A stretch of DNA of 64,000 bases from Nakamurella alba (lineage in GTDB: Bacteria; Actinomycetota; Actinomycetes; Mycobacteriales; Nakamurellaceae), in assembly GCF_009707545.1 (NCBI RefSeq), contig NZ_WLYK01000001.1:1612001-1676000 (forward strand), given 5' to 3'. Both the position numbers and the translations under genes were made by a program. This document shows positions 9,147 through 59,435 of the stretch, in pieces. The number at the start of each line of letters is the position of its first letter. The first letter of the stretch is position 1. The notes under the pieces are model-generated. The model was given only the letters and a program-made list of their open reading frames with translations. It had not been told where the DNA came from and made no database searches.

Positions 9147-9249
9147 GCGCGAGGATCTTCATCGCAGGCGCGCACGAAAGTGGCGACTCCTGTCCCACGC
9201 GTCCCAACGGCGACAACTTCCCACGCGCCTGCGATGAAGATCCTCGCGC
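9147..9249. repeat. Full-length palindromic intergenic element (copy a)
   Basis: A 103-base element ended by perfect 26-base inverted repeats (9147-9172 and 9224-9249, around gcgaggatcttcatcgcagg). The interior carries the family core, on the minus strand gaagttgtcgcc...tgggacaggagtcgccactttc. It ends 15 bases past the pgl stop, so its RNA would fold into a very stable hairpin just after the pentose-phosphate operon and could act as terminator. It is the only copy here with both arms intact. Confidence 0.85.
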
Positions 9250-9264
9250 TGGGGGTGGGGTGGG

Positions 9265-10017
9265 TCAGGAGGTGCGGGTGGCGCGGAGTTCGGGGGGCAG
9301 CTTGCTCGCGGCTGCGGTGTCCAGCAGGAACAGGGTGCGCTTCGTGCCGACGGCCCCGGCCACGGGCAGCGCGACCTCGCCGGCCCCGCCGAGCGCCATG
9401 GCAACCGCGGCGGCCTTCGCGTCACCGGTGGTCATGATCCACACCTCGGCGGCCCGGCGGATGGTCGGCAGGGTGAGGGAGACGCGGGTGGGCGGGGGCT
9501 TCGGGCAGTTGCGGACGGCGACCACCGAGCGGGTGTCGTACACCGCGGGCGACTCCGGGAAGACCGATGCCACGTGGCCCTCGCCGCCCATGCCCAGCAT
9601 CACCACGTCGAAGGTGTCGAACCGCGACACGATCCGGGCGTAGGCATCGGCGGCGGCGTCCACGTCGTCGCCGTACGCGCCGCCCAGCGCCGCCATCGCG
9701 TGCACCCGGGCCGGATCCACCGGCACCTTGTCCAGCAGCGCCTCGCGGGCCTGCTTCTCGTTCCGCTCCGGATCGTCGGCCGGGACGAAACGCTCGTCAC
9801 CCCAGAGCAACTCGATCCGCTTCCAGTCGACCGCGTCGCGGGCGGGGGAGGCGTAGAGCTCGGACAGCACGGCGCCGCCGGTGCCGCCGCCGGTCAGCAC
9901 GATCGAGGGGATCCGGCCGGCCGCCTGGGCGTCGACCAGTTTGGTGACGAGGCGGGCCGCGGTGGCCGAGGCGAGCAGGTCGGGGGTGCGGTGGACGACC
10001 ACCTCGGGCGCGTTCAT
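9265..10017 (-). CDS. pgl: 6-Phosphogluconolactonase
   Basis: A 250-residue protein of the DevB/Pgl type, hydrolysing 6-phosphogluconolactone, the product of Zwf, in the oxidative pentose-phosphate pathway. Family signatures are IVLTGGGTGGAVL near residue 40, WGDERFVPADDPERNE near 72 and MLGMGGEGHVASVFP near 140. Its ATG overlaps the opcA stop (ATGA), making it the last gene of the tkt-tal-zwf-opcA-pgl operon. This order is conserved in mycobacteria. Length and motifs are normal. Confidence 0.96.
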   Translation of the reverse strand: MNAPEVVVHRTPDLLASATAARLVTKLVDAQAAGRIPSIVLTGGGTGGAVLSELYASPARDAVDWKRIELLWGDERFVPADDPERNEKQAREALLDKVPVDPARVHAMAALGGAYGDDVDAAADAYARIVSRFDTFDVVMLGMGGEGHVASVFPESPAVYDTRSVVAVRNCPKPPPTRVSLTLPTIRRAAEVWIMTTGDAKAAAVAMALGGAGEVALPVAGAVGTKRTLFLLDTAAASKLPPELRATRTS

Positions 10018-11417
10018 GCGGTGGGCTCCTCGGTGGCTCGGCGGGTGCGGGGCGTGCGGGCTGGTCGCGCGGTGGGCGTCGCCGTGGTGCCGGCACGGGA
10101 TCGCTTCCGGGTGGTCCCGGCCGGCGCGGCCGGCGCGGCCGCCGCGGCCGCGGCCGCTGGAGCCCTGGTCGCAGAGGCCCTGGTCGCGGTGGACTTGGTC
10201 GAAGAAGCCTTGGTGGCACGAGCCTTGCCGGCCGGAGCCTTCGCAGTCCGCGCCGCACCGGCCGGCGCCTTCCCGGCGGGAGACGGCGTGGCAGGCGCCT
10301 TGCTCGTCGGGGCCTTGGCCGCCGCAGCCTTGGTGGGTCGGGTCGTGGCGGTCGCGGACCTCGTCGTGGAACCCTCGGCAGCTGCGGTCGTGCCGGCCGC
10401 GGACACCGCCGCCACGGACGCCGTGGCGCGGCGCGATGGGCGCTTCGTCGGGGCCTTCTTCGCGTCGGCCTTCGCCGGCTTCGCGGACCTCGACGGAGCC
10501 TTGTCCAGCAGCGGCAGGCCCTTCGCGAGCACCTCGGCGAAAACGTCGTCGGCGTCGAGCCGGCGGAGTTCCTCGGCGATGCAGTCACGCAGGATCCGGC
10601 GCGGCAGCGAGAGCTGGCGTGGCGGCTGGTTGGTGACGGTCAGGGTGGCGGTGGAGTTCTCCGGCCGGACCAGGCTGATCTCCCCGGACCGCCGGGTCAA
10701 CGCGACGGCGCGCAGCCCGGTCCCGGGCCGGTTGATCCGGACCCGCTTGATCGGGCAGCGCAATTGCAGGGCCAGCCAGCCGGCCAGCAGCTCGGCGGAG
10801 GCGGAGTCGGAGGCCGCGGTGATCTCCACCCCGGTGATCTTCTCGTGCGGGGGCTGGTCCAGGGCGGCGGCGAGCAGGCCGCGCCACATGGTCAGTCGGG
10901 TCCAGGCCAGGTCGGTGTCGCCGGGACGGTAGCTGCGCACCCGGGTCTCGATGTCGGCCAGCGGCCGGCGGGACGAGGCGGCGTCGGTGATCCGGCGCTG
11001 CGCCAGCGCACCGATCGGGTCCTCGGCGGGTACGTCCGGTGCCTGCCCGGGCCACCAGACCACCACCGGCGCGTCGGCCAGCAGCAGCGGCACCACCACC
11101 GCGGCGCCGTGGTCGGCGAGCGGTCCGTAGAGCCGCAGGATCACCACCTCGGAGGCGCCGGCGTCACCGCCCACGCGTATCTGCGCGTCCATCCGTGCGG
11201 TGCCGCGCTTGCTGCCCTTGGCCACCACGAGCACCCGGCAAGGGTGCTCGAACGATGCGCCGTTGGCGGCGGCGATCGGGTCCTCGCCGGACTCCTCGTC
11301 GGTGACGATGACCAGGGTGAGCACCCGGCCCTGGGCGTTCGCGCCGCCCTTCTCGCGCAGCTCCACCATCGCCTTGTTGATCGACGAGGAGGTGGTCGAG
11401 GGCAGGTCGATGATCAT
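10014..11417 (-). CDS. opcA: Glucose-6-phosphate dehydrogenase assembly protein OpcA with Lys/Ala-rich tail
   Basis: Residues 1 to about 305 match OpcA, the actinobacterial/cyanobacterial partner needed for active G6PDH (MIIDLPSTTSSSINKAMVEL start, APVVVWWPGQAPDVPAEDP, and C-terminal LPRRILRDCIAEELRRLDAD). Unusually, about 160 further residues follow, made of Lys, Ala, Pro, Ser and Thr in AKAPAGKA/KAPTSKAPA-like repeats, resembling histone H1 or mycobacterial HupB tails. Ordinary OpcA ends near residue 300-340. The tail is in frame up to the ATGA overlap with pgl, so it is translated, and its composition suggests nucleic-acid or polyanion binding. It sits 46 bases after zwf. Confidence 0.93.
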   Translation of the reverse strand: MIIDLPSTTSSSINKAMVELREKGGANAQGRVLTLVIVTDEESGEDPIAAANGASFEHPCRVLVVAKGSKRGTARMDAQIRVGGDAGASEVVILRLYGPLADHGAAVVVPLLLADAPVVVWWPGQAPDVPAEDPIGALAQRRITDAASSRRPLADIETRVRSYRPGDTDLAWTRLTMWRGLLAAALDQPPHEKITGVEITAASDSASAELLAGWLALQLRCPIKRVRINRPGTGLRAVALTRRSGEISLVRPENSTATLTVTNQPPRQLSLPRRILRDCIAEELRRLDADDVFAEVLAKGLPLLDKAPSRSAKPAKADAKKAPTKRPSRRATASVAAVSAAGTTAAAEGSTTRSATATTRPTKAAAAKAPTSKAPATPSPAGKAPAGAARTAKAPAGKARATKASSTKSTATRASATRAPAAAAAAAAPAAPAGTTRKRSRAGTTATPTARPARTPRTRRATEEPTA

Positions 11418-11463
11418 CGGCGGGTGACCTTCCGTGCGGAGAAGCGCTGGCAGGAGGGGACTC

Positions 11464-12996
11464 TCACGGTCGCCGCCAGACGCGGCCGTCGCGGGCCATC
11501 ATCGCGTCGGAGGAGGCCGGGCCCCAGGTGCCCGCGGTGTACGGCTCGGGCTGCGAGTTCAGCTTCGCCCAGTACCTCTCGATCGGGTCGAGGATCTTCC
11601 AGGAGAGCTCGACCTCCTCGTCCTGCGGGAAGAGCGACGGCTCGCCCAGCAGCACGTCCAGGATCAGCCGCTCGTAGGCCTCGGGCGAGGCCTCGGTGAA
11701 CGACTGGCCGTAGGAGAAGTCCATGTTGACGTCGCGGACCTCCATCGACGGCCCGGGCACCTTGGACCCGAAGCGGATGGTGACGCCCTCGTCCGGCTGG
11801 ACCCGGATCACCAGGGCGTTGGAGCCCAGCTCCTCGGTGTCGGTGCGGGCGAACGGCAGGTGCGGCGCGCGCTTGAAGATCACCGCGATCTCGGTGACCC
11901 GCTTGCCCAGCCGCTTGCCGGTGCGCAGGTAGAACGGCACCCCGGCCCACCGCCGGTTGTCCACGAGAAGCTTGACCGCGGCGTAGGTCTCGGTCTTGGA
12001 AGTAGGGGAGAAGCCCTCCTCCTCGAGGTACCCGACGACCTTCTGCCCGCCCTGCCAACCGCCCGCGTACTGCCCGCGCGCCGTCGCCTGGCCCAGATCC
12101 GCCGGCAGCCGCACCGCGGAGAGCACCTTGATCTTCTCGGTGCGCAGGTTCTTCGGGTCGAAGGAGACGGGCTCCTCCATGGCGGTCAGCGCCATCAGCT
12201 GCAGCAGGTGGTTCTGGATGACGTCGCGGGCGGCGCCGATGCCGTCGTAGTAGCCGGCGCGGCCACCGATGCCGATGTCCTCGGCCATGGTGATCTGCAC
12301 GTGGTCGACGTAGTTGGCATTCCAGATCGGTTCGTACAGCTGGTTCGCGAAGCGCAGCGCCAGCAGGTTCTGCACCGTCTCCTTGCCGAGGTAGTGGTCG
12401 ATCCGGAAGACCGACTCCTTCGGGAAGACGTCGTTGACGATGGTGTTGAGTTCCTGTGCCGAGGCCAGGTCGTGCCCGAACGGCTTCTCGATGACCACCC
12501 GGCGCCACTCGTCGCCGTGCGGGTCGGCGAGACCGGACCGGCGCAGTTGCTGCAGCACCACCGGGAAGGCGTTCGGCGGGATGGAGAAGTAGAAGGCGTG
12601 GTTGCCGCCGGTGCCGCGCACGCGGTCCAGGTCGGCCAGCGTCGAGGCGAGGGTGTCGAACGCGTCGTCGTCCCCGAAGGATCCCTGGACGAACCGGAAC
12701 CCCTCCGCGAGGTGACGCCAGACCTGTTCGGAGAACGGCGTTCTCGCATGCTCGCGGACCGCGTCGTGGACGACCTTGGAGAAGTCCTCGTTGTCCCAGT
12801 CGCGGCGCGCGAAGCCGACCAGTGCGAAGCCCGGCGGCAGCAGCCCGCGGTTGGCCAGGTCGTAGATCGCCGGCATCAGCTTCTTGCGCGAGAGGTCGCC
12901 GGTGACACCGAAGATCACGATCCCGGACGGACCGGCGATCCGGGGGAGCCGCTTGTCCCGTGGATCACGCAGTGGGTTGACGTACTCGGTGCTCAT
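11464..12996 (-). CDS. zwf: Glucose-6-phosphate 1-dehydrogenase
   Basis: A 510-residue enzyme oxidising glucose-6-phosphate to 6-phosphogluconolactone with NADP. The N-terminal nucleotide motif IVIFGVTGDLSRKKLMPAIY, the EKPFGHDLASAQ segment and the active-site RIDHYLGKETVQNLL are all intact. ATG at 12996 (MSTEYVNPLRDPRD) is preferred to an in-frame GTG twenty codons upstream that would add a basic non-conserved leader through the terminator region of tal. It is followed by opcA, its assembly factor. Hairpins separate it from tal, so zwf-opcA-pgl may have its own promoter. Confidence 0.96.
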   Translation of the reverse strand: MSTEYVNPLRDPRDKRLPRIAGPSGIVIFGVTGDLSRKKLMPAIYDLANRGLLPPGFALVGFARRDWDNEDFSKVVHDAVREHARTPFSEQVWRHLAEGFRFVQGSFGDDDAFDTLASTLADLDRVRGTGGNHAFYFSIPPNAFPVVLQQLRRSGLADPHGDEWRRVVIEKPFGHDLASAQELNTIVNDVFPKESVFRIDHYLGKETVQNLLALRFANQLYEPIWNANYVDHVQITMAEDIGIGGRAGYYDGIGAARDVIQNHLLQLMALTAMEEPVSFDPKNLRTEKIKVLSAVRLPADLGQATARGQYAGGWQGGQKVVGYLEEEGFSPTSKTETYAAVKLLVDNRRWAGVPFYLRTGKRLGKRVTEIAVIFKRAPHLPFARTDTEELGSNALVIRVQPDEGVTIRFGSKVPGPSMEVRDVNMDFSYGQSFTEASPEAYERLILDVLLGEPSLFPQDEEVELSWKILDPIERYWAKLNSQPEPYTAGTWGPASSDAMMARDGRVWRRP

Positions 12997-13026
12997 GCCC
13001 GGGAGAGGTTCCTTCCTCGATCCGAC

Positions 13027-13121
13027 CGACGACCGGCCCCGGGGTGGTCGCACCACCCGGAGCCGGTCGTCGTCTCAGTGCATCACTGCCGTACCGGTCC
13101 GGCACCCGCGTGCCGGACCGG
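13027..13121 (-). terminator. Two hairpins downstream of tal
   Basis: Just past the tal stop, 13094-13121 forms a perfect 12-base-pair stem (ccggtccggcac) with a four-base loop. Further on, 13027-13072 forms a longer imperfect stem (cgacgaccggc paired with gccggtcgtcg). They lie between tal and zwf and may partly uncouple the two halves of the pathway. Confidence 0.6.
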
Positions 13122-13128
13122 GTGCCGC

Positions 13129-14244
13129 TCAGCTACCGGCGCGGGCCTTCTCCAGGCTCGCGGACACGGTCTCCAGCAGCTCCTCCCACGACTTCTCGAA
13201 CTTCTCGACACCCTCGGTCTCGAGCACGTCGTAGACGTCGGTCAGGTCGATGCCGATGGCCTCGAGGGCGCTGAAGGTGGCGCTGGCCGCGGCGTAGGTG
13301 CCGGCGATCGTGTCGCCGCGGATCACGCCGTGGTCGGCGACCGCGTCGATGGTCTTCTCCGGCGCGGTGTTCACCGTTCCGGGCGCGACCAGTTCGACGA
13401 CGTACCGGGTGTCGTCGTACGCCGGGTCCTTGACGCCGGTCGAGGCCCACAGCGGGCGCTGCGCGTTCGCACCGGAGGAGGCCAGCGCCTCCCAGCGCTC
13501 ACCCGCGTACTTCTCCTCGAACAGCTGATAGGCCAGCCGGGCATTGGCGATCGCGGCCTGGCCGAGCAGCGACTTGGCCTCCGGCGAACCGATGGCGTTC
13601 AGCCGCTTGTCGATCTCGGTGTCCACCCGGGACACGAAGAACGAGGCCACCGAGTGGATCTTGGACAGGTCGTGGCCGTTGGCCTTCGCCTGCTCCAGAC
13701 CCGCCTGGTGCGCCTCGATGACGGCGGCGTAGCGGTCCAGCGAGAAGATCAGCGTGACGTTCACGCTGATGCCCTCGGCCAGCACCGCGGTGATCGCCGG
13801 CAGTCCCGCCAGCGTCGCCGGGATCTTGATCAGCACGTTCGGCCGGTCGACGATCTTCGCCAGTTCCTGCGCCTGGGCCACGGTGGCGGCGGTCTCGTGC
13901 GCCAGCCGCGGGTCGACCTCGATGGACACCCGGCCGTCGACGCCGTTGGTGGCGTCGAAGATCGGCCGGAACAGGTCGCAGGCGTCCCGGACGTCGTCGG
14001 TGGTGGCGGCGCGCACGACGTCGTCGACGTCGGCACCCTGCGCCGCCAGCTCGGCGACCTGCTGCTGGTAGGAGGCGCCGTCGGCCAGCGCGCCCTGGAA
14101 GATCGTCGGGTTGGTGGTGACCCCGACGATGTGCTTGGTGCGGATCAGCTCCGCGAGGTTGCCGGACAGCAGTCGCTGGCGGGACAGGTCGTCCAGCCAG
14201 AGCGAGACGCCGGCGGCCGAGAGATCGGCGAGCGGATCGGACAT
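13129..14244 (-). CDS. tal: Transaldolase
   Basis: A 371-residue transaldolase of the actinobacterial/plant type (TalB subfamily 2), moving a dihydroxyacetone unit between sugar phosphates in the non-oxidative pentose-phosphate pathway. The early [14 protein letters not shown] motif and the Schiff-base lysine segment [16 protein letters not shown] are clear, as is [14 protein letters not shown] further on. It starts at ATG 14244, 66 bases after tkt. The length is normal. Confidence 0.95.
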
Positions 14245-14310
14245 CTGACGATCACTTCTTCCGTGTCGTGGGTGACGGTGCGGTGCGGTGCTTCGTGGTG
14301 GGGCGCGCGG

Positions 14311-16473
14311 TCAGGAGAGGTCGGCGACCGGCGGCTGGTCGGTCGGCTTCGCGGGCTCCGCGGTCGGACCGGTGGCCGGGGCGGCCGCCGCCAGGGACTC
14401 CTTGGCCGCGGCGACGGTGGCATCGGTGGTGATGCCGAACTCCTCGTACAGCTTCTTGAAGTCGGCCGAGGCGCCGTAGTGCTCGAGCGAGATCGGCCGG
14501 CCGGCCGAGCCGAGCCAGCGCCACCAGGGCTGCGCGATCGCGGCCTCGATCGACACCCGGGCGGTGACCGCCTTCGGCAGCACCGACTCGATGTAGGCGG
14601 CGTCCTGCGCCTCGAACCAGTCCAGGCAGGGGACCGAGACCACGCGGGTGCCGATGCCCTCGGCCTGCAGCGCGGCGCGTGCCTCGACGGCGATCTGCAC
14701 CTCGGAGCCGCTGGCCATCAGGATCACCTGCAGGTCGCCCTCGGCCTCCTCGAGCACGTACGCGCCCTTGGCCACGCCCTCGGCGTTGGTGCCGGCGAGG
14801 ACCGGGACGGCCTGCCGGGTCAGGCAGATACCGACCGGGCCGGACTTCCAGGTGTTCTGCTTCTCCAGCACGGCCTGCCAGCCGAACGCCGTCTCGTTGG
14901 CGTCCGCCGGACGCAGCACGGACAGACCCGGGATGGCGCGCAGCGCGGCGAGATGCTCGACCGGCTGGTGGGTCGGGCCGTCCTCGCCGAGGCCGATGGA
15001 GTCGTGGGTCCAGACGTAGACCGCCGGGGCGCCCATGACGGCCGCGAGACGCACGGCGCCGCGCATGTAGTCGGAGAAGGTGAGGAAGGTGCCGCCGTAG
15101 GGCCGGGTCGGGCCGTGCAGCGCGATGCCGGTGAGGATGGCACCCATCGCGTGCTCGCGGATGCCGAAGTGCAGCGTCCGGCCGTAGGGGTTGGCATTCC
15201 ACTCGGCGGTCGCGGCGTCGGTCGGGCCGAACGAGTCGGCACCCTTCATCGTGGTGTTGTTCGACTCGGCCAGGTCGGCCGAGCCGCCCCACAGCTCCGG
15301 CAGCACCGGAGCCAGGGCGGACAGCACCGCTCCGGAGGCGGCGCGGGTGGCGACACCCTTGGGATCCACGTCCCAGCTCGGCAGTGCGTCGGTCCAGCCC
15401 TCGGGCAGGTCGCGCTTCTTCAGCCGGTCCCAGAGCGCCTTGTTCTCCGGGTTGGCGGCAGCCCAGGCGTCGAACTTCGTCTGCCAGTCGGCGTGCCAGG
15501 CGGCGCCACGGTCCTGCAGGCCGCGGGTGTGCTTGAGGACGGTGTCGTCGACCTCGAAGGACTTCTCCGGGTCGAAGCCCAGGATCTTCTTGGTGGCGGC
15601 GACCTCGTCGGCGCCGAGCGCCGAGCCGTGGATCTTGCCGGTGTTCATCTTGTTCGGCGCGGGGAAGCCGATGATGGTGTGCACCTGGATGAACGACGGC
15701 TTGTCGGTGACGGCCTTGGCCGCCTCGATCGCCTCGAGCAGGCCGGTGACGTTCTCGCCGCCCTCGACCTTCTGCACGTGCCAGCCGTACGCCTCGTAGC
15801 GGGCGGCGACGTCCTCGGAGAGGGCGATGTTGGTGTCGTCCTCGATCGAGATCTGGTTGTGGTCGTAGAAGACGATCAGGTTGCCGAGCTGCTGGCGGCC
15901 GGCGATCGAGGACGCCTCGGAGGTGATGCCCTCCTCGATGTCACCGTCGGAGGCGATGACGTAGACGAAGTGGTCGAACGGGCTCTCACCGGGGGCGGCG
16001 GACGGGTCGAACAGCCCGCGTTCGCGTCGGGAGGCCATCGACATGCCGACGGCGGAGGACAGGCCCTGGCCCAGCGGGCCGGTGGTGATCTCGACACCCT
16101 TGGTGTGCAGGTGCTCCGGGTGACCGGGGGTCAGCGAGCCCCAGGTGCGCAGCGCCTCGAGGTCGGCCAGTTCCAGGCCGAAGCCGCCGAGGTAGAGCTG
16201 GATGTACAGGGTGAGGCTGGAGTGTCCGGCGGACAGCACGAACCGGTCGCGGCCCGGCCAGGTGTCGTCGACCGGGTCGGACTTCATGACCCGCTGGAAC
16301 AGTGTGTAGGCGAGCGGGGCCAGGCTCATCGCCGTGCCCGGGTGACCGTTGCCGACCTTCTGCACGGCGTCCGCCGCCAGGACGCGGACGGTGTCGACGG
16401 CGCGGGTGTCCAGGTCGGACCAGTCGTCCGGGTGGTGCGCGGTGGTGAGCGCGGTGATGTCGGCTGCTGTCAC
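14311..16473 (-). CDS. tkt: Transketolase
   Basis: A 720-residue thiamine-diphosphate enzyme exchanging two-carbon units between ketose and aldose phosphates. Visible motifs: [20 protein letters not shown] at the N terminus, the ThDP/Mg region [20 protein letters not shown], the pyrimidine-domain [18 protein letters not shown] and the [20 protein letters not shown] loop. The GTG start at 16473 is supported by GAGGAGG about ten bases upstream (16484-16490). It is the first gene of the tkt-tal-zwf-opcA-pgl cluster, divergent from ctaB as in mycobacteria. Confidence 0.96.
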
Positions 16474-16904
16474 AGGTGGAATGCCTCCTCGGCCAGGGCG
16501 GCCGCACAGGCCGCGGTCGTTCGTCAGGTGTCGGTACCCACACCTGGCGGTCGCCAGCAACCCTAGTCCCACGCGACGAGGGCTTCATGTCCGGATCGCC
16601 CTCGATGTCCGGCCGCCGGAGTCGTTCGTCCGGGGTTCGGGAGCGGTTGGCGTCGTGTTCGCCTGTGTTGCCCCATGTTTCACTCTGTTCGGCGTTGCCC
16701 GGGCGCGTCGACGTCCTTGTACGAACGGTCCTCCGGCGTGGTGTCCTGCCTTCGGCGCGGACCGGCCGGACCGTGTCGAAGGTCGCGGTGCGCACCCGGC
16801 GGGTCCGTGTCGCCCTGTGTGGGCCGGTCAGGTGTGCGGACCCTAGGATGGGCAGGCACCGACAGCCGCCGCGGCCGGTGCGGGAGCAGCTTGGAGGAAG
16901 TGCC
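16474..16904. promoter_or_regulatory. Divergent tkt / ctaB promoter region
   Basis: 431 bases without a supported gene. A TAGGAT sequence at 16844-16849 fits a TAnnnT -10 box for ctaB and would give a leader of about 50 bases; its -35 is not recognisable. The tkt promoter must also lie here, but no clear minus-strand -10 was found. The stretch 16665-16700 is less GC-rich than its surroundings. Confidence 0.4.
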
Positions 16905-17900
16905 TTGTCAGTACCGGCCCCGGGACCGGACGCCCGCTCGGTGTCCACACCCGTCGCTGACCGGGGGACGCTCGATCCGGGGATCCTGGTCGGCGGCCGT
17001 CGGAGCAAGGTCACCAGCACCCTGCTGGCTTATGTCGCGCTGACCAAGCCGCGGATCATCGAGCTGCTGCTCATCACCACCATCCCGGCGATGTTCGCCG
17101 CCGAGCGCGGCATCCCCGGCTTCGGGCTGGTCGTCGCCACCCTGGTCGGCGGCACCCTCGCGGCCGGATCGGCCAACGCGCTCAACTGCGTGGTCGACGC
17201 CGACATCGACGCCGTCATGCGGCGCACCCGGACCCGGCCGCTGGCCCGGCACGCGGTGCCCACCCGCAACGCGCTGGTCTTCGGCATCGTGCTCGGCATC
17301 CTGTCGGCCGCGTTCCTGGCGTGGACCACCACCTGGCAGGCCGCGGTGCTGGCCGTCGTGGCGATCCTGTTCTACGTCTTCGTCTACTCGATGTGGCTCA
17401 AGCGCCGTACCAGCCAGAACATCGTCTGGGGCGGCCTGGCCGGCTGCATGCCGGTGATCATCGGGTGGTCCGCGATCACCGGCGGCATCGGTTGGCCGGC
17501 CTGGGTCTTCTTCGGCGTCATCTTCTTCTGGACGCCGCCGCACACGTGGGCGCTGGCGATGCGCTACCGCGAGGACTACGCCGCGGCCGGCGTCCCGATG
17601 CTCCCGGTCGTCGCGACCGAGCGGGTCGTGGTCCGGCAGATCGTCGTCTACTCCTGGGCGATGGTGGCCTGCTCGCTGCTGCTGGTCCCGGCGTCGTCGT
17701 GGATCTACGCCGCCGTCGCCGCGCCGGCCGGGCTGCTGTTCCTGGCCACCGCGCACATCCTGCACTTCCGGGTGCTCAAGGGTGTGCCGGCGCAGCCGAT
17801 GACCCTGTTCCATCTGTCCAACCTGTACCTGACCGTGATCTCGGTGGCGTGGGCCGTCGACGCCGCGATCGGACTGAACGTCGTGGGGTGGCCCTGGTGA
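16905..17900 (+). CDS. ctaB: Protoheme IX farnesyltransferase (heme O synthase)
   Basis: A 331-residue UbiA-family membrane enzyme that adds a farnesyl group to heme b, making heme O for aa3-type cytochrome oxidase. The first aspartate-rich motif is [20 protein letters not shown]; the second region is around [19 protein letters not shown]. The seven to nine helices expected are present. The TTG start at 16905 has GGAGGAA nine bases upstream, and other upstream starts lack such a site. Its stop overlaps the next gene (GTGA). Its partner heme A synthase (ctaA) is at 21250, on the other strand. Confidence 0.94.
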
Positions 17901-18259
17901 GCGAGTCCGGAACCGACCCGGCGGCCGACCCGGCCGATGCCGTGGTGACCGGCACCAAGAAGGACTTCTGGGAGCACTACGACCCGGCGCCGCTGGTGGC
18001 CCGATTCCGGGAGTTCGTGCAGGCCCACGGCGCTCCGGGTGTCGGCGTGGTGCAGTACCTCGGCCGGTCCGGCGCCCGCGTCGTCGTGGTCGCCGCCGAC
18101 GGCCTCTTCACCGATGCCGTGGTGCCGAACGAGGCCGCAGCCGCCGACCTCTGCGAGCAGGCCGGGGTCGAGGTCGAGGACTGGTCCCGCGAGCTCACCG
18201 CCCGGATCACCCTGTCACCCGCCGACCGCCTCAAGATGGCCGGTGGGCGGTCTCACTGA
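17897..18259 (+). CDS. Small conserved-looking protein of unknown function
   Basis: 120 residues, soluble, no signal peptide or helix. The GTG start overlaps the ctaB stop by four bases, implying coupled translation. The body ([20 protein letters not shown], then [21 protein letters not shown]) looks like a compact alpha/beta domain with an acidic C-terminal half; no catalytic motif was recognised. Coupling suggests a role connected to ctaB or expression of the downstream membrane protein. A repeat element begins at its stop codon. Confidence 0.7.
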
Positions 18260-18379
18260 ACATTGCGGCCCGGGGGCCGCGGATCGCTCGTCTGTGAAGG
18301 GATCCCGCGTTCTGCGCTTCTCACTCGTCCCTCGCTCCGATGCTCGACCGCACGATCCCGACGAGCGACCGGTCATGGC
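18255..18379. repeat. Dispersed repeat, TGCTCGACCGCACGATC type (copy i)
   Basis: Shares with 58261-58408 the core tctgcgcttctc ... tgctcgaccgcacgatcccga, flanked by an inverted pair, here gatcgctcgtc (18282-18292) and gacgagcgacc (18360-18370). It starts over the stop of the small ctaB-coupled gene and its right end contains the ATG of the next gene. Confidence 0.75.
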
Positions 18380-21186: not shown

Positions 21187-21249
21187 GTCGACCAATCTAG
21201 GCCCGGGGTCCGACAGCCGGATCCGCGTCAGGAAGCGGGGCAGCCGGGG

Positions 21250-46486: not shown

Positions 46487-46504
46487 GAACTGCGTGGGAG
46501 GCGA

Positions 46505-48808: not shown

Positions 48809-48855
48809 CCTCCCGGACACCTGCTGGGTCGCGGTGTCGGGCAGGATCTCCAGCC

Positions 48856-49909: not shown

Positions 49910-51333
49910 GCGATCACCGAGTCGACCAAGCGGGCGGCGAGATCCCAGGACCCGACCAGCGGGTGCAGGGCGAACCCGGCGAGTGCGGCGTCCCGGCTGC
50001 GGTGCACGACGGCGTCGATGATCTTCCGCTCGGCCGCCCGGACCGAGGTCATCATGCCAAGCTGGTACAGCTCCAGCGGGGCGACCGGCAGCGGCGATGC
50101 GCCGGAACCGTTCACCCGGCAGCGGGTCTCGATCACCATGTCGGCGGGCAGCTCGGCGATCGCTCTGTCACCGATGCGGCTGTGGGCGCCGGCGGCGGAG
50201 ATGGCGGTGGCAACGCTCACGGTGTTCTGGGAATCGGCCTGCTCGAAGGCGCGGCCTCCATGGCGGTTCTGGGCGCACGCCGCCCCGGTGACTCCGGCGG
50301 CGCGCCCGTTGGGGGCGTTCACGATCATCTCCACGGCAGGACCGCCGGTGAGCGCCGCCATCAGGTCCAGGGCGACGTGCTCGTACCCGCCGCCCTCCAG
50401 GTCCTCCTCGGCCCGCTCCTCCTGCCGGGCCTCTGCCAGGTACGTCTCCTCGCGGCTGCGCCGGGCCGCCTCCCAGAGCTGCGCCGCCCGGTCGGGAGCG
50501 CCCACGGCGTCGGCGTAGAACCGTTGCTGCTGCGCGGCGAGCACCTCGCCGCGGGTGTCGGTCCCGGCGAGTTGTGCCGCCAGCGCGCGGGACTCGGCGA
50601 AGAAGTACAGGTACTCGTTCGGGATCGCGCCCAGGGCCTGCAGCACCGGCGCCCCGAACAGTGCGCCCTCCTCGAACCCTTCGACCGCGGCCCGGTCGGC
50701 CAGCAGGTCGGGCAGCAGGTCCCGGCCGTCGTGATGCAACGCGCGCAGCCATCCCAGGTGGTTGATCCCGACGTAGTCGGCGTCGATGAGCGCCGGATCC
50801 AGGCCGAGTGCCCGCACCGACCGGCGGATCAGCCCGATCGGGGAGTCGCAGATGCCGATCACCCGCCGGCCGAGCACACCGGTGAGCGCCTCGGTGATCA
50901 GCCCGGCCGGGTTGGTGAAGTTGATCAGCCAGGCGTCCGGGGCGATCCGGGCCTGCAGCCGCGCCGCGTCCAGCACCACCGGCAGTGTGCGCAGCGCGTA
51001 GGACAGGCCGCCGGCGCCGACCGTCTCCTGACCGAGCAGACCGAGATCGAGTGCCCGCCGTTCGTCGCGCACCCGACCCGCGGCTCCGCCGACCCGGATC
51101 GCGGAGAAGACGACGTCGGCCCCGGTCATCGCGTCGGGCAGGTCGGTGGTGGTGCGGACCCGCAGGCCGGGCGTCTCCGGCAGCACCGACCCGATCACGC
51201 CGAGTCGTTCGCTGTCGATGTCGTACAGCACCAGTTCGTCGACATCCAGTGCGCCGCTGCGGATCCGGCCGGCCAGAGCCCGGTGCACCAGCGGGACCCG
51301 GAACCCGCCGCCGCCGAGGATCACCAACCGCAT
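49876..51333 (-). CDS. GH4 family 6-phospho-beta-glucosidase-like enzyme
   Basis: 485 residues of glycoside hydrolase family 4, which uses NAD and a divalent metal in an oxidation-elimination mechanism. Features: Rossmann start MRLVILGGGGFRVPLV, VVFSAIRVGGAAGRVRDE, LINFTNPAGLITEAL, metal ligand Cys in GICDSPIG and His in VGINHLGW, and IPNEYLYFF. It likely cleaves a phosphorylated glucoside, though no PTS gene is nearby. ATG 51333 is chosen; ATG 51351 with AAGGA immediately before is an alternative. The 3' end is duplicated downstream. It is divergent from a sugar kinase that might provide the 6-phosphate. Confidence 0.9.
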   Translation of the reverse strand: MRLVILGGGGFRVPLVHRALAGRIRSGALDVDELVLYDIDSERLGVIGSVLPETPGLRVRTTTDLPDAMTGADVVFSAIRVGGAAGRVRDERRALDLGLLGQETVGAGGLSYALRTLPVVLDAARLQARIAPDAWLINFTNPAGLITEALTGVLGRRVIGICDSPIGLIRRSVRALGLDPALIDADYVGINHLGWLRALHHDGRDLLPDLLADRAAVEGFEEGALFGAPVLQALGAIPNEYLYFFAESRALAAQLAGTDTRGEVLAAQQQRFYADAVGAPDRAAQLWEAARRSREETYLAEARQEERAEEDLEGGGYEHVALDLMAALTGGPAVEMIVNAPNGRAAGVTGAACAQNRHGGRAFEQADSQNTVSVATAISAAGAHSRIGDRAIAELPADMVIETRCRVNGSGASPLPVAPLELYQLGMMTSVRAAERKIIDAVVHRSRDAALAGFALHPLVGSWDLAARLVDSVIADEPTVRELLA

Positions 51334-51455
51334 GGCTTCACGGTAGGTCATTTCCTTGGTGCCCGATCCGCTCGGCGCCCGATCAGCTCGGCACCGGTCG
51401 GTCCGCCCGTCGCCGGCCGGGTCAGCTGGCCGGGCTCGGCGGCTGGCCGGGCGTC

Positions 51456-51500
51456 GGTGAGCGATGAGAAGGTGAGCGATGAGAAGGTGGGCGGTGAGAG
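51456..51500. repeat. 15-bp tandem repeat upstream of the PfkB gene
   Basis: Units ggtgagcgatgagaa (twice exact) and ggtgggcggtgagag. Each contains GTGAGCGAT, the same nine bases that form the start of the kinase gene (GTG AGC GAT at 51527), but in another frame. Confidence 0.8.
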
Positions 51501-51526
51501 GGTGGGGCGATGGGAGCGACCGACGG

Positions 51527-52567
51527 GTGAGCGATCTCGACGTGTTCATGCAGGGCACCGTGTTTTTCGACATGGTGCTCACCGGCCTGCCGACCCTGCC
51601 GCAGCCGGGCACCGAGATGCACGCCGAGGGGATGGGGTCCTGCCCGGGCGGCATCGCGAACCTGGCGGTCGCCGCGTCCCGGCTCGGCCTGCGGGCCGGT
51701 CTGGCGTCGACGTTCGGCGACGACGTCTACGGCGACTTCCTCTGGGGCACCCTCGCGGAGGAAGGGGTGGACCTGAGTCGCTCCCGCCGGATCAGCGACT
51801 GGCACTCCCCGGTGACCGTCTCGCTGGCGGTCCATCGCGACCGGGCGATGGTGACCCACGGGCATCCCTCGCCGGTCCCGGTCGACGAGCTGGTACCGAG
51901 CGCTCCTGAGGCGGCGGCCGGGGTGGTGACCCTCGGCGAGATGGACCAGGTATGGGTGCGGGAGGCGCACCGCAAGGGCGTCAAGCTGTTCGGCGACGTC
52001 GGCTGGGACCCCAGCGAGCAATGGTCGACGGATGTGCTCGACCAGTTGACGTCGCTGCACGCCTTCATGCCCAACAGCGTGGAGGCGATGGCCTACAGCC
52101 GCACCGAGGACCCGCGGGCGGCGCTGCTGCACCTGGCCGATCTGGTGCCGGTGGTGGTGGTGACCTGCGGTGGTCAGGGGGCGATCGGCATCGACTCGAA
52201 CACCGGCGAGGAGGAGTGGGTGCCGTCGCTGCCGGTGAACGCCGTCGACGCCACCGGTGCCGGCGACGTCTTCGCAGCAGCCTTCCTGCTCGGTTCGCTG
52301 CGGGAATGGCCGCTGCGCAATCGGATGGCCTTCGCCAACCTGTGCGCGGCGCTGTCGGTGCAGCAGGTCGGCGGATCGCTGGCTGCGCCCGGCTGGGGCG
52401 ACATCATCGACTGGATCTCGGGTGTCCGCGCCGCGGCTGCCCAGGGGTCGCGGGCGGCCGCCGTCCTCGGGCACTCCTACGAGTTCCTGGACGAGGAGCT
52501 GACCCGGCACCAGCACACCTCGGTGCGCCGCGCGGTGGCGACGGTGGCGAGGTTCTCCGATGCCTGA
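51527..52567 (+). CDS. PfkB family carbohydrate kinase
   Basis: 346 residues, ribokinase-like. Signature 1 is GSCPGGIANLAVAASRLGLRAG near residue 40 and signature 2 NAVDATGAGDVFAAAFLLG near 245 with the catalytic Asp. It probably phosphorylates a sugar or sugar-like compound. GTG 51527 has GGGAG ten bases before and the expected beta-strand start (DLDVFMQGTVFFDMVL). The frame ends two codons before the next small leader of the LigD-like gene. Divergent GH4 suggests a shared carbohydrate pathway; substrate unknown. Confidence 0.92.
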   Translation: MSDLDVFMQGTVFFDMVLTGLPTLPQPGTEMHAEGMGSCPGGIANLAVAASRLGLRAGLASTFGDDVYGDFLWGTLAEEGVDLSRSRRISDWHSPVTVSLAVHRDRAMVTHGHPSPVPVDELVPSAPEAAAGVVTLGEMDQVWVREAHRKGVKLFGDVGWDPSEQWSTDVLDQLTSLHAFMPNSVEAMAYSRTEDPRAALLHLADLVPVVVVTCGGQGAIGIDSNTGEEEWVPSLPVNAVDATGAGDVFAAAFLLGSLREWPLRNRMAFANLCAALSVQQVGGSLAAPGWGDIIDWISGVRAAAAQGSRAAAVLGHSYEFLDEELTRHQHTSVRRAVATVARFSDA

Positions 52568-52594
52568 GTGCTGTCCAGCCCGGGAGGTGCGCTG

Positions 52595-53566
52595 ATGGCG
52601 TCGAAGAAGTCGGTCGAGATCCGGGACGACGTCGAGCTCACCAATCTCGACGAGCCGCTCGCCGACCGCGGCGGACCGTCGAAGCGGGTGCTGGTCGACT
52701 ACCTGGATGCGGCCTCCGACCGGCTGATCCCGGCGTTGGCGGAGCGGCCGGTGTCGGTGATCCGGGTGCGTCCCGGCCAGCCGTCGTTCATGCAGAAGAA
52801 CCTGCCGACGTACACGCCGGCCTGGGTGCGCTCCACCACGGTGTGGGCCGAGGCGTCGAAACGTGAGATCCGGTACGCACTCTGCGAGGACCGTCGCACC
52901 CTGCTGTGGCTGGGCAACCAGCGGGCGGTGGAATTCCACGTCCCGCTGGTCCGGGTGGGGGAGCAGCACCAGACGCACCTCGTGCTCGACCTGGACCCGC
53001 CGGAGGGCGCCGGCTTCGACGCCGTGGTGGCGGTGGCGAAGCTGGTGCGGCAGGCGCTCGCCGACGCCGGGTTGGACGGGGCGGTGAAGACCAGTGGCGC
53101 CAAGGGCCTGCACATCTTCGTCCCGCTGCAGCCGCTACCGATCGAGGATGCCGCCGCGGCGACCCGGGCACTTGCCGCCCGCACCGCGGCGCTCGATCCG
53201 TCGATCGCGACGACGGCCTACCTGCTGGAGGAGCGGGAGGGCAAGGTCTTCGTCGACGCCACCCGGGCCGGCGGCGCCACCGTGGTGGCGGCGTGGAGCC
53301 CGAGACTCCGCCCCGGCCTTCCGGTCTCGTATCCACTGTCGTGGGACGAGCTGGACGGCGTCCACCCCTCCGACTTCACCTGTACGACGGTGGCGTCATC
53401 GGCGGGTCCGGGTGGTGATCCCTGGGTGGACCTGATGCCGGAACCGCAGCGCATCCCGGACGACGTGCTCGAGCAGGGCCGGCAGATCCCCATCGCCCGG
53501 GTCGTCGCGATGCACGAGGGCAAGCGCCGCAAGCGCGCCCGCGAGGCCGCCCCCGACACCCCCTGA
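52595..53566 (+). CDS. Stand-alone LigD-type polymerase (primase) domain protein
   Basis: 323 residues matching the archaeo-eukaryotic primase domain of LigD used in bacterial end joining: RLIPALAERPVSVIRVRPG with FMQKNLPTYTPAWV, the metal-binding HLVLDLDPPEG and the nucleotide-binding KTSGAKGLHIFVPLQPL. No ligase, nuclease or Ku gene is in the window. Separate Pol domains are common in actinobacteria and can add ribo- or deoxynucleotides at gaps. ATG 52595 has GGGAGG seven bases upstream. It starts 27 bases after the kinase stop. A palindromic element begins three bases after its stop. Confidence 0.9.
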   Translation: MASKKSVEIRDDVELTNLDEPLADRGGPSKRVLVDYLDAASDRLIPALAERPVSVIRVRPGQPSFMQKNLPTYTPAWVRSTTVWAEASKREIRYALCEDRRTLLWLGNQRAVEFHVPLVRVGEQHQTHLVLDLDPPEGAGFDAVVAVAKLVRQALADAGLDGAVKTSGAKGLHIFVPLQPLPIEDAAAATRALAARTAALDPSIATTAYLLEEREGKVFVDATRAGGATVVAAWSPRLRPGLPVSYPLSWDELDGVHPSDFTCTTVASSAGPGGDPWVDLMPEPQRIPDDVLEQGRQIPIARVVAMHEGKRRKRAREAAPDTP

Positions 53567-53568
53567 CC

Positions 53569-53650
53569 GCGCGAGGATCTTCTTCGCAGGCGCGTGCGAA
53601 GTTGTCGGCGTTGGGACGGATGGTGCAGGTGTCGCCACTTTCCTACGCGC
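53569..53650 (+). repeat. Palindromic intergenic element (copy b)
   Basis: Left arm gcgaggatcttcttcgcagg, then the core gaagttgtcgg...tgggac...caggtgtcgccactttc; the right arm is missing. It starts three bases beyond the LigD-like stop and could serve as its terminator. 53651-53736 shows nothing further recognisable. Confidence 0.8.
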
Positions 53651-53736
53651 ACCCCGGGTCGTGGGCGGGTGACTGTCGCCCGGCGCTACGGAGACCTCCG
53701 CGTCCGCGTGGCTTGGATCGACTGTGCGCCCGGCCC

Positions 53737-53819
53737 GCATGGATCAACTCCGCCCGCAGGGCGTTCCGGGGCGGAAATGTGACCGGTGGTGCAGGAGTCG
53801 CCGAGTTCGTCCCTGCAAG
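53737..53819 (+). repeat. Palindromic intergenic element, GATCCACGC-arm subtype (copy g)
   Basis: Starts gcatggatcaactccgcccg and carries aaatgtgaccggtggtgcagg followed by agtcgccgagttcgtccctgc, matching copies f and h. It lies just past the 3' end of the VOC gene. Confidence 0.75.
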
Positions 53820-53873
53820 TCGCCACCGTCGGAGGACAGCACCGCCCGGCGCGGCACCTGGCGGCGCTGCGAC

Positions 53874-54269
53874 TCACGGCGGGCCGGCGGCCGCCTCGGC
53901 ATCGGAGCGCAGCACGCAGAACTCGTTGCCCTCAGGGTCGGCGAAGGTCACCCAGCCCGACCCGTCCGGTCGCCGACGGTCGGCAAGTTCGGTGGCGCCC
54001 GCGGACCGGAGACGCTCCACTTCCTGCTCGCGCCCGCCGTCGATCGGTCGGAGGTCCAGGTGCAGACGGTTCTTGCCGGACTTGGTGTCCGGCGTCTCGA
54101 TGAACAGCATCCGATGCCCGGTCACCGGATCGACGATCATGCACTCCTCGTCGCCGGGTTCGTTGGGATCACCAGGCACGTCCGTGTAGCCGAGCAGGGC
54201 CTTCCACCACTCGGAGAGCGCGTAGGCGTTGTGGCTGTCGATCGTCAGGTGCGAGACGCGGCAGGTCAT
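53874..54269 (-). CDS. VOC/glyoxalase-fold protein
   Basis: 131 residues, one full vicinal-oxygen-chelate domain of two beta-alpha-beta-beta-beta units (VSHLTIDSHNAYALSEWWKA, and the C-terminal WVTFADPEGNEFCVL with the conserved acidic metal ligand). Actinobacterial proteins of this type are often putative metal-dependent lyases or resistance proteins; the reaction is unknown. ATG 54269 with AGGA upstream is favoured over an in-frame GTG 19 codons earlier. Repeat elements flank it on both sides. Confidence 0.88.
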   Translation of the reverse strand: MTCRVSHLTIDSHNAYALSEWWKALLGYTDVPGDPNEPGDEECMIVDPVTGHRMLFIETPDTKSGKNRLHLDLRPIDGGREQEVERLRSAGATELADRRRPDGSGWVTFADPEGNEFCVLRSDAEAAAGPP

Positions 54270-54319
54270 GTGCACATCCTGACCGGTCACCGGCCGGCGC
54301 GCACCCGCCTTTCGTGCGG

Positions 54320-54405
54320 CTCGCAATGATCAACTCTGCGGGAATGGGACCGGTGAGGCAGGAGTCGACGAGTTCGCCCCTGCTGGCCGAGATGATCCAT
54401 GCGAG
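54320..54405 (+). repeat. Palindromic intergenic element, GATCCACGC-arm subtype (copy h)
   Basis: Inverted ends ctcgcaatgatca / tgatccatgcgag with the core aatgggaccggtgaggcagg and agtcgacgagtt. It lies between the VOC gene and acnR. Confidence 0.78.
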
Positions 54406-54481
54406 TCACAGTTCCACGGCAGCACGCCGAGCGCGGCCGGAGGCGTTCGGGTCCGCCGCGACCGAGGCCCGGCATCGTCAC

Positions 54482-54564
54482 CGCGCGTGCGAAAGTGGCG
54501 ACACGCGACCCACCAGTCCCAACGGCGACAACTTCCTACGCGTCGACGAAGAAGATCCTCGCGC
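54482..54564 (-). repeat. Palindromic intergenic element (copy c)
   Basis: Reads, on the minus strand, gcgaggatcttcttcgtcga then gaagttgtcgcc...tgggac...tgtcgccactttc. One arm only. It lies 10 bases past the acnR stop. Confidence 0.8.
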
Positions 54565-54574
54565 CGGCGTTCGG

Positions 54575-55150
54575 TCAGGGGGTGACGGCGGAGCGGTCGC
54601 GGACGGCGCCCTCGACCACGTCGAGCACGGCGTCGAGCCGGGAGGCGTCGCCGCCCTCGCCGAGGTGGGCCACCAGGCCCTCCATCACCAGCTCCAGATA
54701 CGAGGCCAGCACGTCGATGTCGACGTCCTCGCGGAGCACCCCCGCGGCACGCTGACGCCGCAGTCGGTCCCGGGTGGCCTCGCGCAGCTGCGCGGTGGTG
54801 GCCGCGAGCGCCTCGCGGAACACCGGGTCGGTCCGCGACCGCCGGGACACCTCGAGCTGGGTGCCGAGCCGGCCGGTGTCGGGGGAGTGCACGAGCTCGC
54901 GCATCACCCGCACCAGGCCCTCGCGCTCGACGGTGCGGGCCATCTCCGCCGCGTCCTGCCCGGCGAGAGCCAGGAACAGGGCGTCCTTGTCGGCGAAGTG
55001 GTGGAAGATCGCGCCACGGGAGAGGCCGATCTCCTCCTCCAACAGGCGCACCGTGGCGCCCTCGTAACCGTGGCGCGCGAAGGCCGCCCGGGCACCGTCC
55101 AGGATCTGCCGGCGCCGGGCCTGCAGGTGGTCCGGGCTCACCCGTGGCAC
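54575..55150 (-). CDS. acnR: TetR-family regulator AcnR (aconitase repressor)
   Basis: 191 residues. The N-terminal TetR helix-turn-helix is ARAAFARHGYEGATVRLLEE-EIGLSRGAIFHHFADKDALF; the rest is a helical ligand/dimer domain. Placement directly after acn matches AcnR of corynebacteria and Rv1474c of mycobacteria, which repress aconitase. A matching operator is found at the acn promoter. GTG 55150 has AAGGAGGG about eight bases upstream. Transcribed in the same direction as acn, 91 bases apart, with a hairpin between. Confidence 0.9.
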   Translation of the reverse strand: MPRVSPDHLQARRRQILDGARAAFARHGYEGATVRLLEEEIGLSRGAIFHHFADKDALFLALAGQDAAEMARTVEREGLVRVMRELVHSPDTGRLGTQLEVSRRSRTDPVFREALAATTAQLREATRDRLRRQRAAGVLREDVDIDVLASYLELVMEGLVAHLGEGGDASRLDAVLDVVEGAVRDRSAVTP

Positions 55151-55193
55151 GCCCTCGCCCTCCTTCCGGATCCGTTCCCCTGCAACGGGACCA

Positions 55194-55228
55194 CCCTGCG
55201 CGGCGACGGGATCGCCGTCCGCGCAGGG
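55194..55228 (-). terminator. Hairpin between acn and acnR
   Basis: ccctgcgcgg pairs with ccgcgcaggg over a loop that can pair further (acgg/ccgt). It may attenuate read-through from acn into acnR. Confidence 0.55.
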
Positions 55229-55241
55229 CGTTCCGCGGATG

Positions 55242-58106
<2,865 letters not shown>

Positions 58107-58227
58107 GGCGTCTCTCCTTGTGCGACAGGGCGTTTCCGGATCCCTGCGGCGGCGCGGACCCGGCGGTACCGGCGGTCGCGCTGCCGCGGGGGAGCACCCC
58201 GGGCACCTGCGACCGCAACGCCCTAAA

Positions 58228-58248
58228 CAGTACGCGCGTCCTGCTATA
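58228..58248 (-). promoter_or_regulatory. acn promoter -10 and AcnR operator
   Basis: On the minus strand CAGGACGCGCGTACTG (58228-58243) fits the corynebacterial AcnR consensus CAGNACnnncGTACTG (from memory) at every fixed base. TATAGC (58243-58248) directly upstream is a good -10, so repressor would cover the transcription start about 120-130 bases before the acn GTG. The -35 region falls inside the neighbouring repeat and is weak. Confidence 0.78.
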
Positions 58249-58260
58249 GCGGCAACACCG

Positions 58261-58408
58261 GGCTGAACATGGCGAGCTGGCGCTCGCGGGTCGCTCGATC
58301 TCGGAGGGATCGCGCGTTCTGCGCTTCTCGCCTCCGTTCGTGCCTCTCTCCGGCTGCGATGCTCGACCGCACGATCCCGATCGAGCGACCGAACATGGCG
58401 AGCCGGCG
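58261..58408. repeat. Dispersed repeat, TGCTCGACCGCACGATC type (copy j)
   Basis: Bounded by an 18-base direct repeat gaacatggcgagcyggcg (58265-58282, 58391-58408). Inside lies a perfect 12-base inverted repeat (ggtcgctcgatc 58289-58300, gatcgagcgacc 58379-58390) and the core shared with 18255-18379. It abuts the acn promoter. Confidence 0.8.
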
Positions 58409-58440
58409 CCCCGGGTCCGTCGACCTGCGCCCTGCGTAGC

Positions 58441-58521
58441 CGCGAGGATCTTCATCGTCGACGCGCACGAAGTTGTCGCGAATGGGACCGGTGGGACAGA
58501 AGTCGCCATCTTCGTACGCGC
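58441..58521 (+). repeat. Palindromic intergenic element (copy d)
   Basis: Left arm cgcgaggatcttcatcgtcg, core gaagttgtcgcgaatgggac then gggacagaagtcgccatcttcg; no full right arm. It lies between the acn promoter and the 3' end of the SDR gene. Confidence 0.82.
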
Positions 58522-58561
58522 AGCGGGGCGTCAGCAGCTGCCGAAACGACGAGCCCTTCGC

Positions 58562-59338
58562 TCAGAGCGCCTCGGGGTCCAACCCGAGCGCCGCCCGCCC
58601 GCCGTCCACCGGGATCACCGCGCCGCTGACGAATCCGGCGGCGGGGGAGAGCAGGAAGGCGACGAGGTCGGCGACCTCTGTGGTGGTGCCGATCCGGCCC
58701 AGCGGGTGCAGCCGGGCGATGTCCGCGTCCACCCGGGACGCGCCGGCCGGTCCGAGCCGCTCGAGAAGCTCGTCGTGCCGCGTCGTGCGGATCGAGCCCG
58801 GGGCGACGGCGTTGACCCGGATGCCGTTCGGGCCGTGATCGACGGCGGCGGCCCGGGTCAGCCCTTCGATCGCGGCCTTCGCCGTGGCGTAGGCGGCAGC
58901 CCCGCGGACCGCGCGCTGCGCCTGATGGGAGGACAGGTTGACGATGGATCCGGCGGTGCCGGCGGAGGTGAAGGCGCGGACCGCGGCGCGGGTGCCGGCG
59001 ATCACCGGGAGCAGGTTGGTCAGCACGGCATCGCCGAATGCTGCGGACCCGTCGAGCAGGTCGACGTCGCGGAACACCGCGGCATTGTTCACCCACCCGG
59101 TCAGCGGTCCGACTGCGACGGCCTCGCCGACGGCCCGCTCGAGCACCTCGTCGTCCGCGGCCGAGCCCCCGACCACCCGGATTCGCGGGTCCCCGATCGC
59201 CCACGATGCGGCGGCGCCGTCGAACTCGACGATCACCACGGCAGCGTGGTCGACGGCGAGCCGCTCGGCGATCGCCCGTCCGATCCCGCGACCCCCGCCG
59301 GTGACCACGGCCGTCCCGTCGGAGTGCTGCTCCGTCAT
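58562..59338 (-). CDS. SDR-family oxidoreductase
   Basis: 258 residues of classical short-chain dehydrogenase type: cofactor motif VVTGGGRGIGRAIAERL, NNAA motif (WVNNAAVF), catalytic Ser in IVNLSSHQAQ, YATAK catalytic Tyr/Lys and C-terminal SGAVIPVDGGRAALG. Gly-rich motif and an acidic residue after beta-2 (VIVEFDGA) suggest NAD rather than NADP. Substrate unknown. ATG 59338. Palindromic elements lie on both sides of the gene. Confidence 0.92.
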   Translation of the reverse strand: MTEQHSDGTAVVTGGGRGIGRAIAERLAVDHAAVVIVEFDGAAASWAIGDPRIRVVGGSAADDEVLERAVGEAVAVGPLTGWVNNAAVFRDVDLLDGSAAFGDAVLTNLLPVIAGTRAAVRAFTSAGTAGSIVNLSSHQAQRAVRGAAAYATAKAAIEGLTRAAAVDHGPNGIRVNAVAPGSIRTTRHDELLERLGPAGASRVDADIARLHPLGRIGTTTEVADLVAFLLSPAAGFVSGAVIPVDGGRAALGLDPEAL

Positions 59339-59352
59339 GCGACCAGCATGCC

Positions 59353-59435
59353 CGCGCGTAGGAAGTTGTCGCGAATGGGACCAGAGGGGCGGGAGTCGCC
59401 ATTTTCATGCGCGTCGACGATGAAGATCCTCGCGC
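59353..59435 (-). repeat. Palindromic intergenic element (copy e)
   Basis: ggaagttgtcgcgaatggga, then gggcgggagtcgccattttc and the arm cgacgatgaagatcctcgcg. It lies 15 bases upstream of the SDR start and so inside its presumed promoter region. Confidence 0.82.

Follow-up and report, generated by a model that had tools for sequence, protein, structure and literature searches.

Short palindromic elements built of inverted iterons lie behind many genes of Nakamurella alba, and we consider it reasonably probable that they form a genus-specific family of short non-autonomous mobile elements, akin to REPINs (doublets of repetitive extragenic palindromes, REPs, that form hairpins) and to miniature inverted-repeat transposable elements (MITEs), whose two-armed copies probably act as two-way terminators or protectors of mRNA 3' ends. 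They were first noticed in a stretch of 64,000 nucleotides (hereafter the window; contig NZ_WLYK01000001.1, positions 1,612,001 to 1,676,000), for which the initial annotation had listed five copies of a palindromic intergenic element. Rereading of the window sequence confirmed all five, at 9147-9249, 53569-53650, 54482-54564, 58441-58521, and 59353-59435, and also that both arms are present only in the first of them, the other four being one-armed. Allowing up to 3 mismatches, the window contains 20 occurrences of the arm motif GAGGATCTTCATCG versus 4.5 ± 1.9 after shuffling, and with up to 2 mismatches it contains 45 of the core word GAAGTTGTCGC versus 16.4 ± 3.8, neither count being reached in any of 100 shuffles; the word CAGGAGTCGCCA alone is at chance level in the window (14 versus 11.9 shuffled, with 36 shuffles reaching 14). 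Genes were called here and below by a custom script that was trained on this genome and also used on its relatives, and the distances are accordingly approximate. By these calls four of the copies are separated from a gene 3' end by 16, 3, 11, and 40 nt, while copy 59353 lies 15 nt upstream of the start of an SDR gene, with the next gene ending 69 nt away, in agreement with the placement originally described.

Copy number, anatomy, and range

The genome-wide search that had been proposed along with the five copies recovered 67 distinct places in the 6.05-Mb genome, as judged by a position matrix applied to the window and to 52 fetched regions selected from BLASTN and covariance-model matches. 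All but one of them (66/67) lie outside called open reading frames (ORFs), end overlaps of up to 25 nt being tolerated. Both arm scores are positive in 36 copies, and one is in the remaining 31. BLASTN with one copy gave 67 rows in the same genome (both orientations of the palindrome counted, best 40 of 83 candidates scored), a covariance model built from 20 two-armed copies gave 120 rows (both strands, E up to 1, best 150 of 7,379 candidates), and the degenerate arm CGAGGATCWWSWTC occurs 69 times in the whole genome, compared with zero occurrences of the reversed control. Three weakly matching regions (L079, L081, and L082) contain no copy according to the matrix, and copies of a related subfamily are visible in the latter two.

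Aligned copies from five genomes outline an element of about 104 bases, consisting of two iterons, an asymmetric centre near TTGGGACNGGTGGGACAGGAGTC / TTTGGGACTGGTGGGACAGGAGTC, and two inverted iterons. The iterons are 19-21 bp long, inverted around the centre, and present once, twice, or in one case four times per side; pattern scanning and locus reading revealed 80-base copies with one iteron per side and others with two on a side, while the single copy with four iterons in a row, at a 19-base step, was found in the relative G006 (L203). What had been called the arm is the extra iteron, and one-armed copies are probably variants in iteron number. The original description of copies that simply keep one of two arms is therefore probably wrong in general, with some partner arms looking degenerate. 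Subfamilies differ between species, and within N. alba (L058 and other copies) arms differ in their second half by entire WWS triplets (AAC, TTC, ATC, AAG, ATG). The copies of this genome are moreover flanked at a fixed distance by C-rich sequence to the left and G-rich sequence to the right; the median of the best 10-mer C-minus-G value is 7 for element copies versus 3 for element-free 3' ends, and the flanks are either part of the element or its preferred site.

A genus-wide model (42 copies from five genomes) matches 8 of 17 genomes of the genus, six of them heavily, with 148 rows in G006, 107 in N. alba, and 104, 94, 73, 51, 3, and 1 in the others; these rows are not exact copy numbers, since a palindrome may count on both strands and the best 150 candidates per genome were scored. 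None of 245 other genomes of the class was matched under strict filters with 16 candidates scored per genome listed, nor did the first covariance model match any of eight genomes belonging to the same order but to other families. The six heavy carriers occupy four separate places in a tree of Acn, TetR, Pgl, and Mdh, in which the relative G008 adjoins N. alba yet gives no model match. Several deep nodes of this four-gene tree have low support, and its root is unusable because the outgroups, which have pgl only, fall next to N. alba; the named-genome scan for pgl relatives omits records near the genome of the window. Phage records yielded no element match and viral contigs none to the centre pattern, whilst one plasmid match of 27 bp and iteron-pattern matches in 87 viral stretches (one match each among the 80 listed) were taken as chance.

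The element had been called undescribed, and to the best of our knowledge it is: a literature search found no such repeat, Rfam gave no match at the gathering score in 95,304 bases from five sources, and the Nakamurella genome paper (PMC9789016) makes no mention of repeats, palindromes, transposition, insertion sequences (ISs), or mobile elements. Neither Nakamurella nor Actinobacteria is mentioned in the consulted text of PMC3733652 and PMC6006769.

Position at gene ends and hairpin potential

Twenty-six of the 67 copies lie between convergent, 35 between codirectional, and five between divergent genes, and one lies inside a called ORF. Among gaps of at least 60 nt in the same regions, 23 convergent, 32 codirectional, and 5 divergent ones contain the element, compared with 31, 120, and 63 that do not. 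A gene 3' end neighbours 62 copies, at a median distance of 23.5 nt and within 60 nt for 47 of them, and codirectional copies are closer to the 3' end of the upstream gene in 29 of 35 cases (p 6e-5). The 29 copies placed in relatives comprise 11 convergent, 15 codirectional, and 2 divergent cases and one undefined. Among the 28 one-armed copies with a neighbouring gene 3' end, 25 have the extra iteron turned towards the nearest one; the strand of the centre shows no preference relative to the neighbouring gene (14:14 for one-armed and 18:15 for two-armed copies). Decay is not a likely origin of one-armed copies in general, yet the distal iteron may have been lost selectively.

It had also been suggested that the element doubles as a terminator or RNA hairpin. 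The two-armed copies bear this out with regard to folding, as in 33 of 36 one strand or both reach a z below -4 against 30 shuffles each, copy 9147 folding at -95.4 kcal/mol with a z of -10, whereas this holds for only 2 of 31 one-armed copies (z -0.07 for copy 53569). Judging from the predicted folds, two-armed copies may terminate transcription. Since one-armed copies mostly lack the hairpin, termination is not the common function of the family, and it is likely a by-product in the two-armed copies.

Insertion, spread, and competing explanations

The window features that bear on the history of the family, among them three older copies beyond the five first listed, are the following (coordinates, strand, description; basis).

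9137-9146, plus, C-rich flank, typical of the copies of this genome, outer part of the element or preferred site; sequence and position profile over all copies
9147-9249, minus, two-armed copy with iterons 2+2, 16 nt behind pgl (9265-10017); sequence, BLASTN, model, matrix, RNA fold (-95.4 kcal/mol, z -10)
9250-9259, plus, G-rich flank, counterpart opposite the C-rich one; sequence and position profile
53569-53650, plus, one-armed copy, extra iteron adjoining the stop codon of a LigD-like gene; sequence, model, matrix, fold z -0.07
54482-54564, minus, one-armed copy, extra iteron adjoining the stop codon of a TetR gene; sequence, model, matrix
58441-58521, plus, one-armed copy, extra iteron pointing away from the SDR 3' end; sequence, model, matrix
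59353-59435, plus, one-armed copy with the SDR gene start on one side and the 3' end of gene 59504-61093 on the other; sequence, matrix, BLASTN
8833-8936, minus, older diverged copy (GTGGATC subfamily) in the pgl-mdh gap; model match of 42.8 bits, E 1.2e-4 (contig 1620833-1620936)
53737-53816, plus, older diverged copy within the glyoxalase unit; sequence by eye, unscored
54321-54405, plus, older diverged copy within the glyoxalase unit; weak model match, E 0.27 (contig 1666321-1666405)
53569-54564, no strand, unit in which two outward-armed copies enclose a glyoxalase-like gene (53874-54326, minus); sequence, gene not found at the loci of 14 relatives with TetR behind acn
58441-59435, no strand, unit of two outward-armed copies around the SDR gene (58562-59338, minus); sequence, unit missing from all 12 relatives that share the neighbours

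Insertion is lineage-specific at both the pgl-mdh and the acn locus. The pgl-mdh gap of N. alba measures 572 bases and holds two elements and another repeat, and no element was seen by eye in the 11 relatives whose gap was readable. The SDR gene, which stands between acn and the next gene with a copy on either side, was seen in none of the 12 relatives that have these neighbours; in the alignment with G008 the acn upstream region matches as far as 58262, and beyond that point the gap yielded only a short low-scoring match. For the glyoxalase gene, not found in 14 relatives, the loci extend no more than 1.5 kb beyond acn. Two further repeats were observed nearby: two direct copies of a different repeat (minus strand GCCGGGCCGATTGCCTACAGCCACCGTCGGCAACCGGCCCAGGAA) at 8985-9115, between the 9147 element and the older copy, and a palindrome-like unit with GAACATGGCGAGC ends at 58263-58440, between the G008-alignable part of the acn upstream region and the SDR unit.

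As regards spread, the two members of a near direct pair match each other best in L032, L038, L039, L041, L046, L049, and L080 (seven among 15 neighbouring pairs; L044 nearly so), as expected from local duplication, and a 112-bp unit containing the element stands in three tandem copies in G006 (L204:1230-1560). The four outward-armed pairs and the remaining near pairs are not mutual best matches. A composite transposon, as could be read from the outward arms, was weakened as an explanation because the arms turned out to be iterons. We surmise that the iterons inverted around the conserved asymmetric centre of each copy are probably read by a protein supplied in trans, the specificity of which would differ by subfamily, and that copies would spread within the genome, leaving no target-site duplication, to sites just behind stop codons. 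Tandem duplication would multiply them locally, with iteron number varying, and two-armed copies, once transcribed, would form very strong hairpins that probably serve as two-way terminators or protect the 3' ends of mRNAs.

Candidate motors were sought by family searches. RAYT (REP-associated tyrosine transposase; Y1_Tnp, PF01797), a transposase of the kind suggested at the outset as support for mobility, is rejected as the motor, as there is no match in the N. alba genome; the only match in the genus is in G022 (L122; 1 of 17 genomes) and contains one in-frame stop. Reverse transcriptase (PF00078) is rejected as well, because 13 of 17 genomes of the genus match but the carrier N. alba does not, and its presence hence does not track the element. 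A transposase gene with matching ends, likewise named initially as support, was not found in a search that fell short of whole-genome scans. The iteron pattern scan gave matches in eight genomes, and the stretches L208, L209, L210, and L216, considered as candidate parents, proved to be separate 80-bp copies and not one large element, the genes there not having been family-scanned.

Several of these and other observations weigh against a mobile family. Neither of the above enzyme families has a match in the N. alba genome, no integron integrase exceeds the curated cut-off in any of 17 genomes of the genus, and one-armed copies mostly fold no better than shuffles. The element is missing at the same loci of relatives (pgl-mdh and acn), in keeping with the empty sites that had been looked for, but no empty site was seen to the base. 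Target-site duplications show no excess over mismatched copies for k of 2-10 in 36 copies from N. alba and 26 from relatives. In N. alba the C-rich and G-rich flanks of one copy pair no better with each other than with those of other copies (97 of 200 shuffles as low), although somewhat better in relatives (6 of 200), and the WWS triplets often differ by eye between the two arms of one N. alba copy. Pairing kept between subfamilies, by contrast, speaks for the family: both sides change in 23 of 33 pairs of the 42-row alignment, and double changes number 148 versus 63.5 ± 6.6 shuffled and 20-40 once partners are slid, shuffles which overstate covariation because the rows are related; this covariation may reflect hairpin selection, or both arms having been copied from one iteron type. 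Insertion into the loop of pre-existing C/G terminator hairpins was rejected, given the pairing of the flanks and the fact that no empty hairpins were seen by eye in element-free convergent gaps under 160 nt and in the C-rich ones of 226 element-free 3' ends.

The strongest competitor would see the copies as bidirectional terminators or mRNA 3' stabilisers under selection, the repeats spreading only by duplication and recombination, which we regard as rather unlikely. The folds of the 33 two-armed copies argue for it, as do the stop codons lying no more than 30 nt from 24 of 36 two-armed copies, some of 12 listed convergent gaps that are little beyond the element and its C/G flanks, and G.T cells exceeding A.C cells (48 versus 20) on the centre-defined strand, an excess that is also weak since rows are related and arms may copy one iteron. 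Such selection accords poorly with a family in which one-armed copies, mostly without a fold, make up 31 of 67, five copies sit between divergent genes, and 9 of 17 genomes of the genus, G008 included, have no match; copy 59353, furthermore, lies beyond another strong hairpin of its neighbour gene (59456-59490, by eye).

The elements might alternatively be recombination sites like integron attC sites, by which single genes are acquired as cassettes in units of the form [iterons-centre]-gene-[centre-iterons], a reading that we hold to be very improbable. In its favour, two of four outward-armed pairs enclose a single gene (53569/54564 and 58441/59435), one encloses two genes (L043), and one about 100 bp (L047). 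All 12 relatives lack the SDR unit, the G008 alignment upstream of acn stops short of it, and in L038 and L041 the two direct copies that enclose one gene match each other best. Yet integron integrase matches in the genus are all sub-threshold, occurring in 17 of 17 genomes and likewise in 14 of 14 control genomes, and an integron is rejected for lack of an integrase above cut-off; the outward pairs rank 1-45 of 66 as matches to each other, for most one-armed copies the fetched regions show no such partner, and the cases are few. An iteron-ended miniature class moved by a non-Y1 enzyme, targeting sites behind stop codons and with pairs carrying or receiving single genes, would amount to a dispersed cassette system lacking an integron integrase, and this we consider improbable. 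Least probable of all are degenerate binding sites of a host regulator or nucleoid protein, arisen by duplication with no mobile history: the iteron step of 19-21 bp, approximately two helical turns, and the same variable bases within many copies would suit such a protein, whereas the fixed length, the asymmetric conserved centre, the tens of dispersed copies, and the patchy species range fit an element better.

Relation to known repeats and implications

The characterization as REP- or MITE-like was supported in part, by tens of intergenic copies, lineage-specific loci, subfamilies that differ between species, the two-armed hairpin, and the position behind stop codons. REPINs are described, in the consulted part of PMC3116915, as hairpin-forming inverted pairs around a spacer that are extragenic, occur in near-identical tandem clusters, and show compensatory changes, and the element resembles them in these respects, except that a strong hairpin is typical of two-armed copies (33 of 36) and rare among one-armed ones (2 of 31). 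It is likewise extragenic and present in tens to hundreds of copies, as REPs are (66 of 67 copies outside ORFs; 51-148 rows in six genomes). Unlike a REPIN, it has a conserved asymmetric centre instead of a free spacer, its arms are a variable number of 19-21-bp iterons, its own genome lacks a RAYT match, and the REP tag GTAG (or CGTC) named in the consulted part of PMC3733652 has no counterpart as a constant tetranucleotide at the ends of two alignments of copies, inspected by eye. Because RAYT and tag are both lacking, we do not file the element as a REPIN, though it works like one. MITEs are defined in the same part of PMC3733652 as 70-300 bp long with terminal inverted repeats and no coding capacity. 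The element shares the terminal inverted repeats, the lack of coding capacity, and a length below 300 bp, and differs in that neither a target-site duplication nor, in scans that fell short of whole genomes, a parent element was found.

By description, the element is also like ERIC (enterobacterial repetitive intergenic consensus) in size, imperfect palindromy, and intergenic placement. ERIC sequences are imperfect palindromes of ~100-130 bp in intergenic, transcribed regions, with a transposase that is unknown or external; to our knowledge, iteron arrays and a 3'-end bias are not among their features. Integron attC sites are imperfect palindromes of similar size right behind stop codons, which the element resembles, but it is dispersed and not arrayed, with no integrase over the cut-off.

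Most known REP and REPIN families come from bacteria other than actinobacteria, and RAYT is accepted as their motor. A REPIN-like family of iterons, apparently lacking RAYT, in an actinobacterial genus would suggest more than one motor for such elements, and related species with and without the element make it a tractable system. Repeats of this kind can confuse assembly and annotation, and the two-armed copies are candidate two-way terminators for high-GC hosts.

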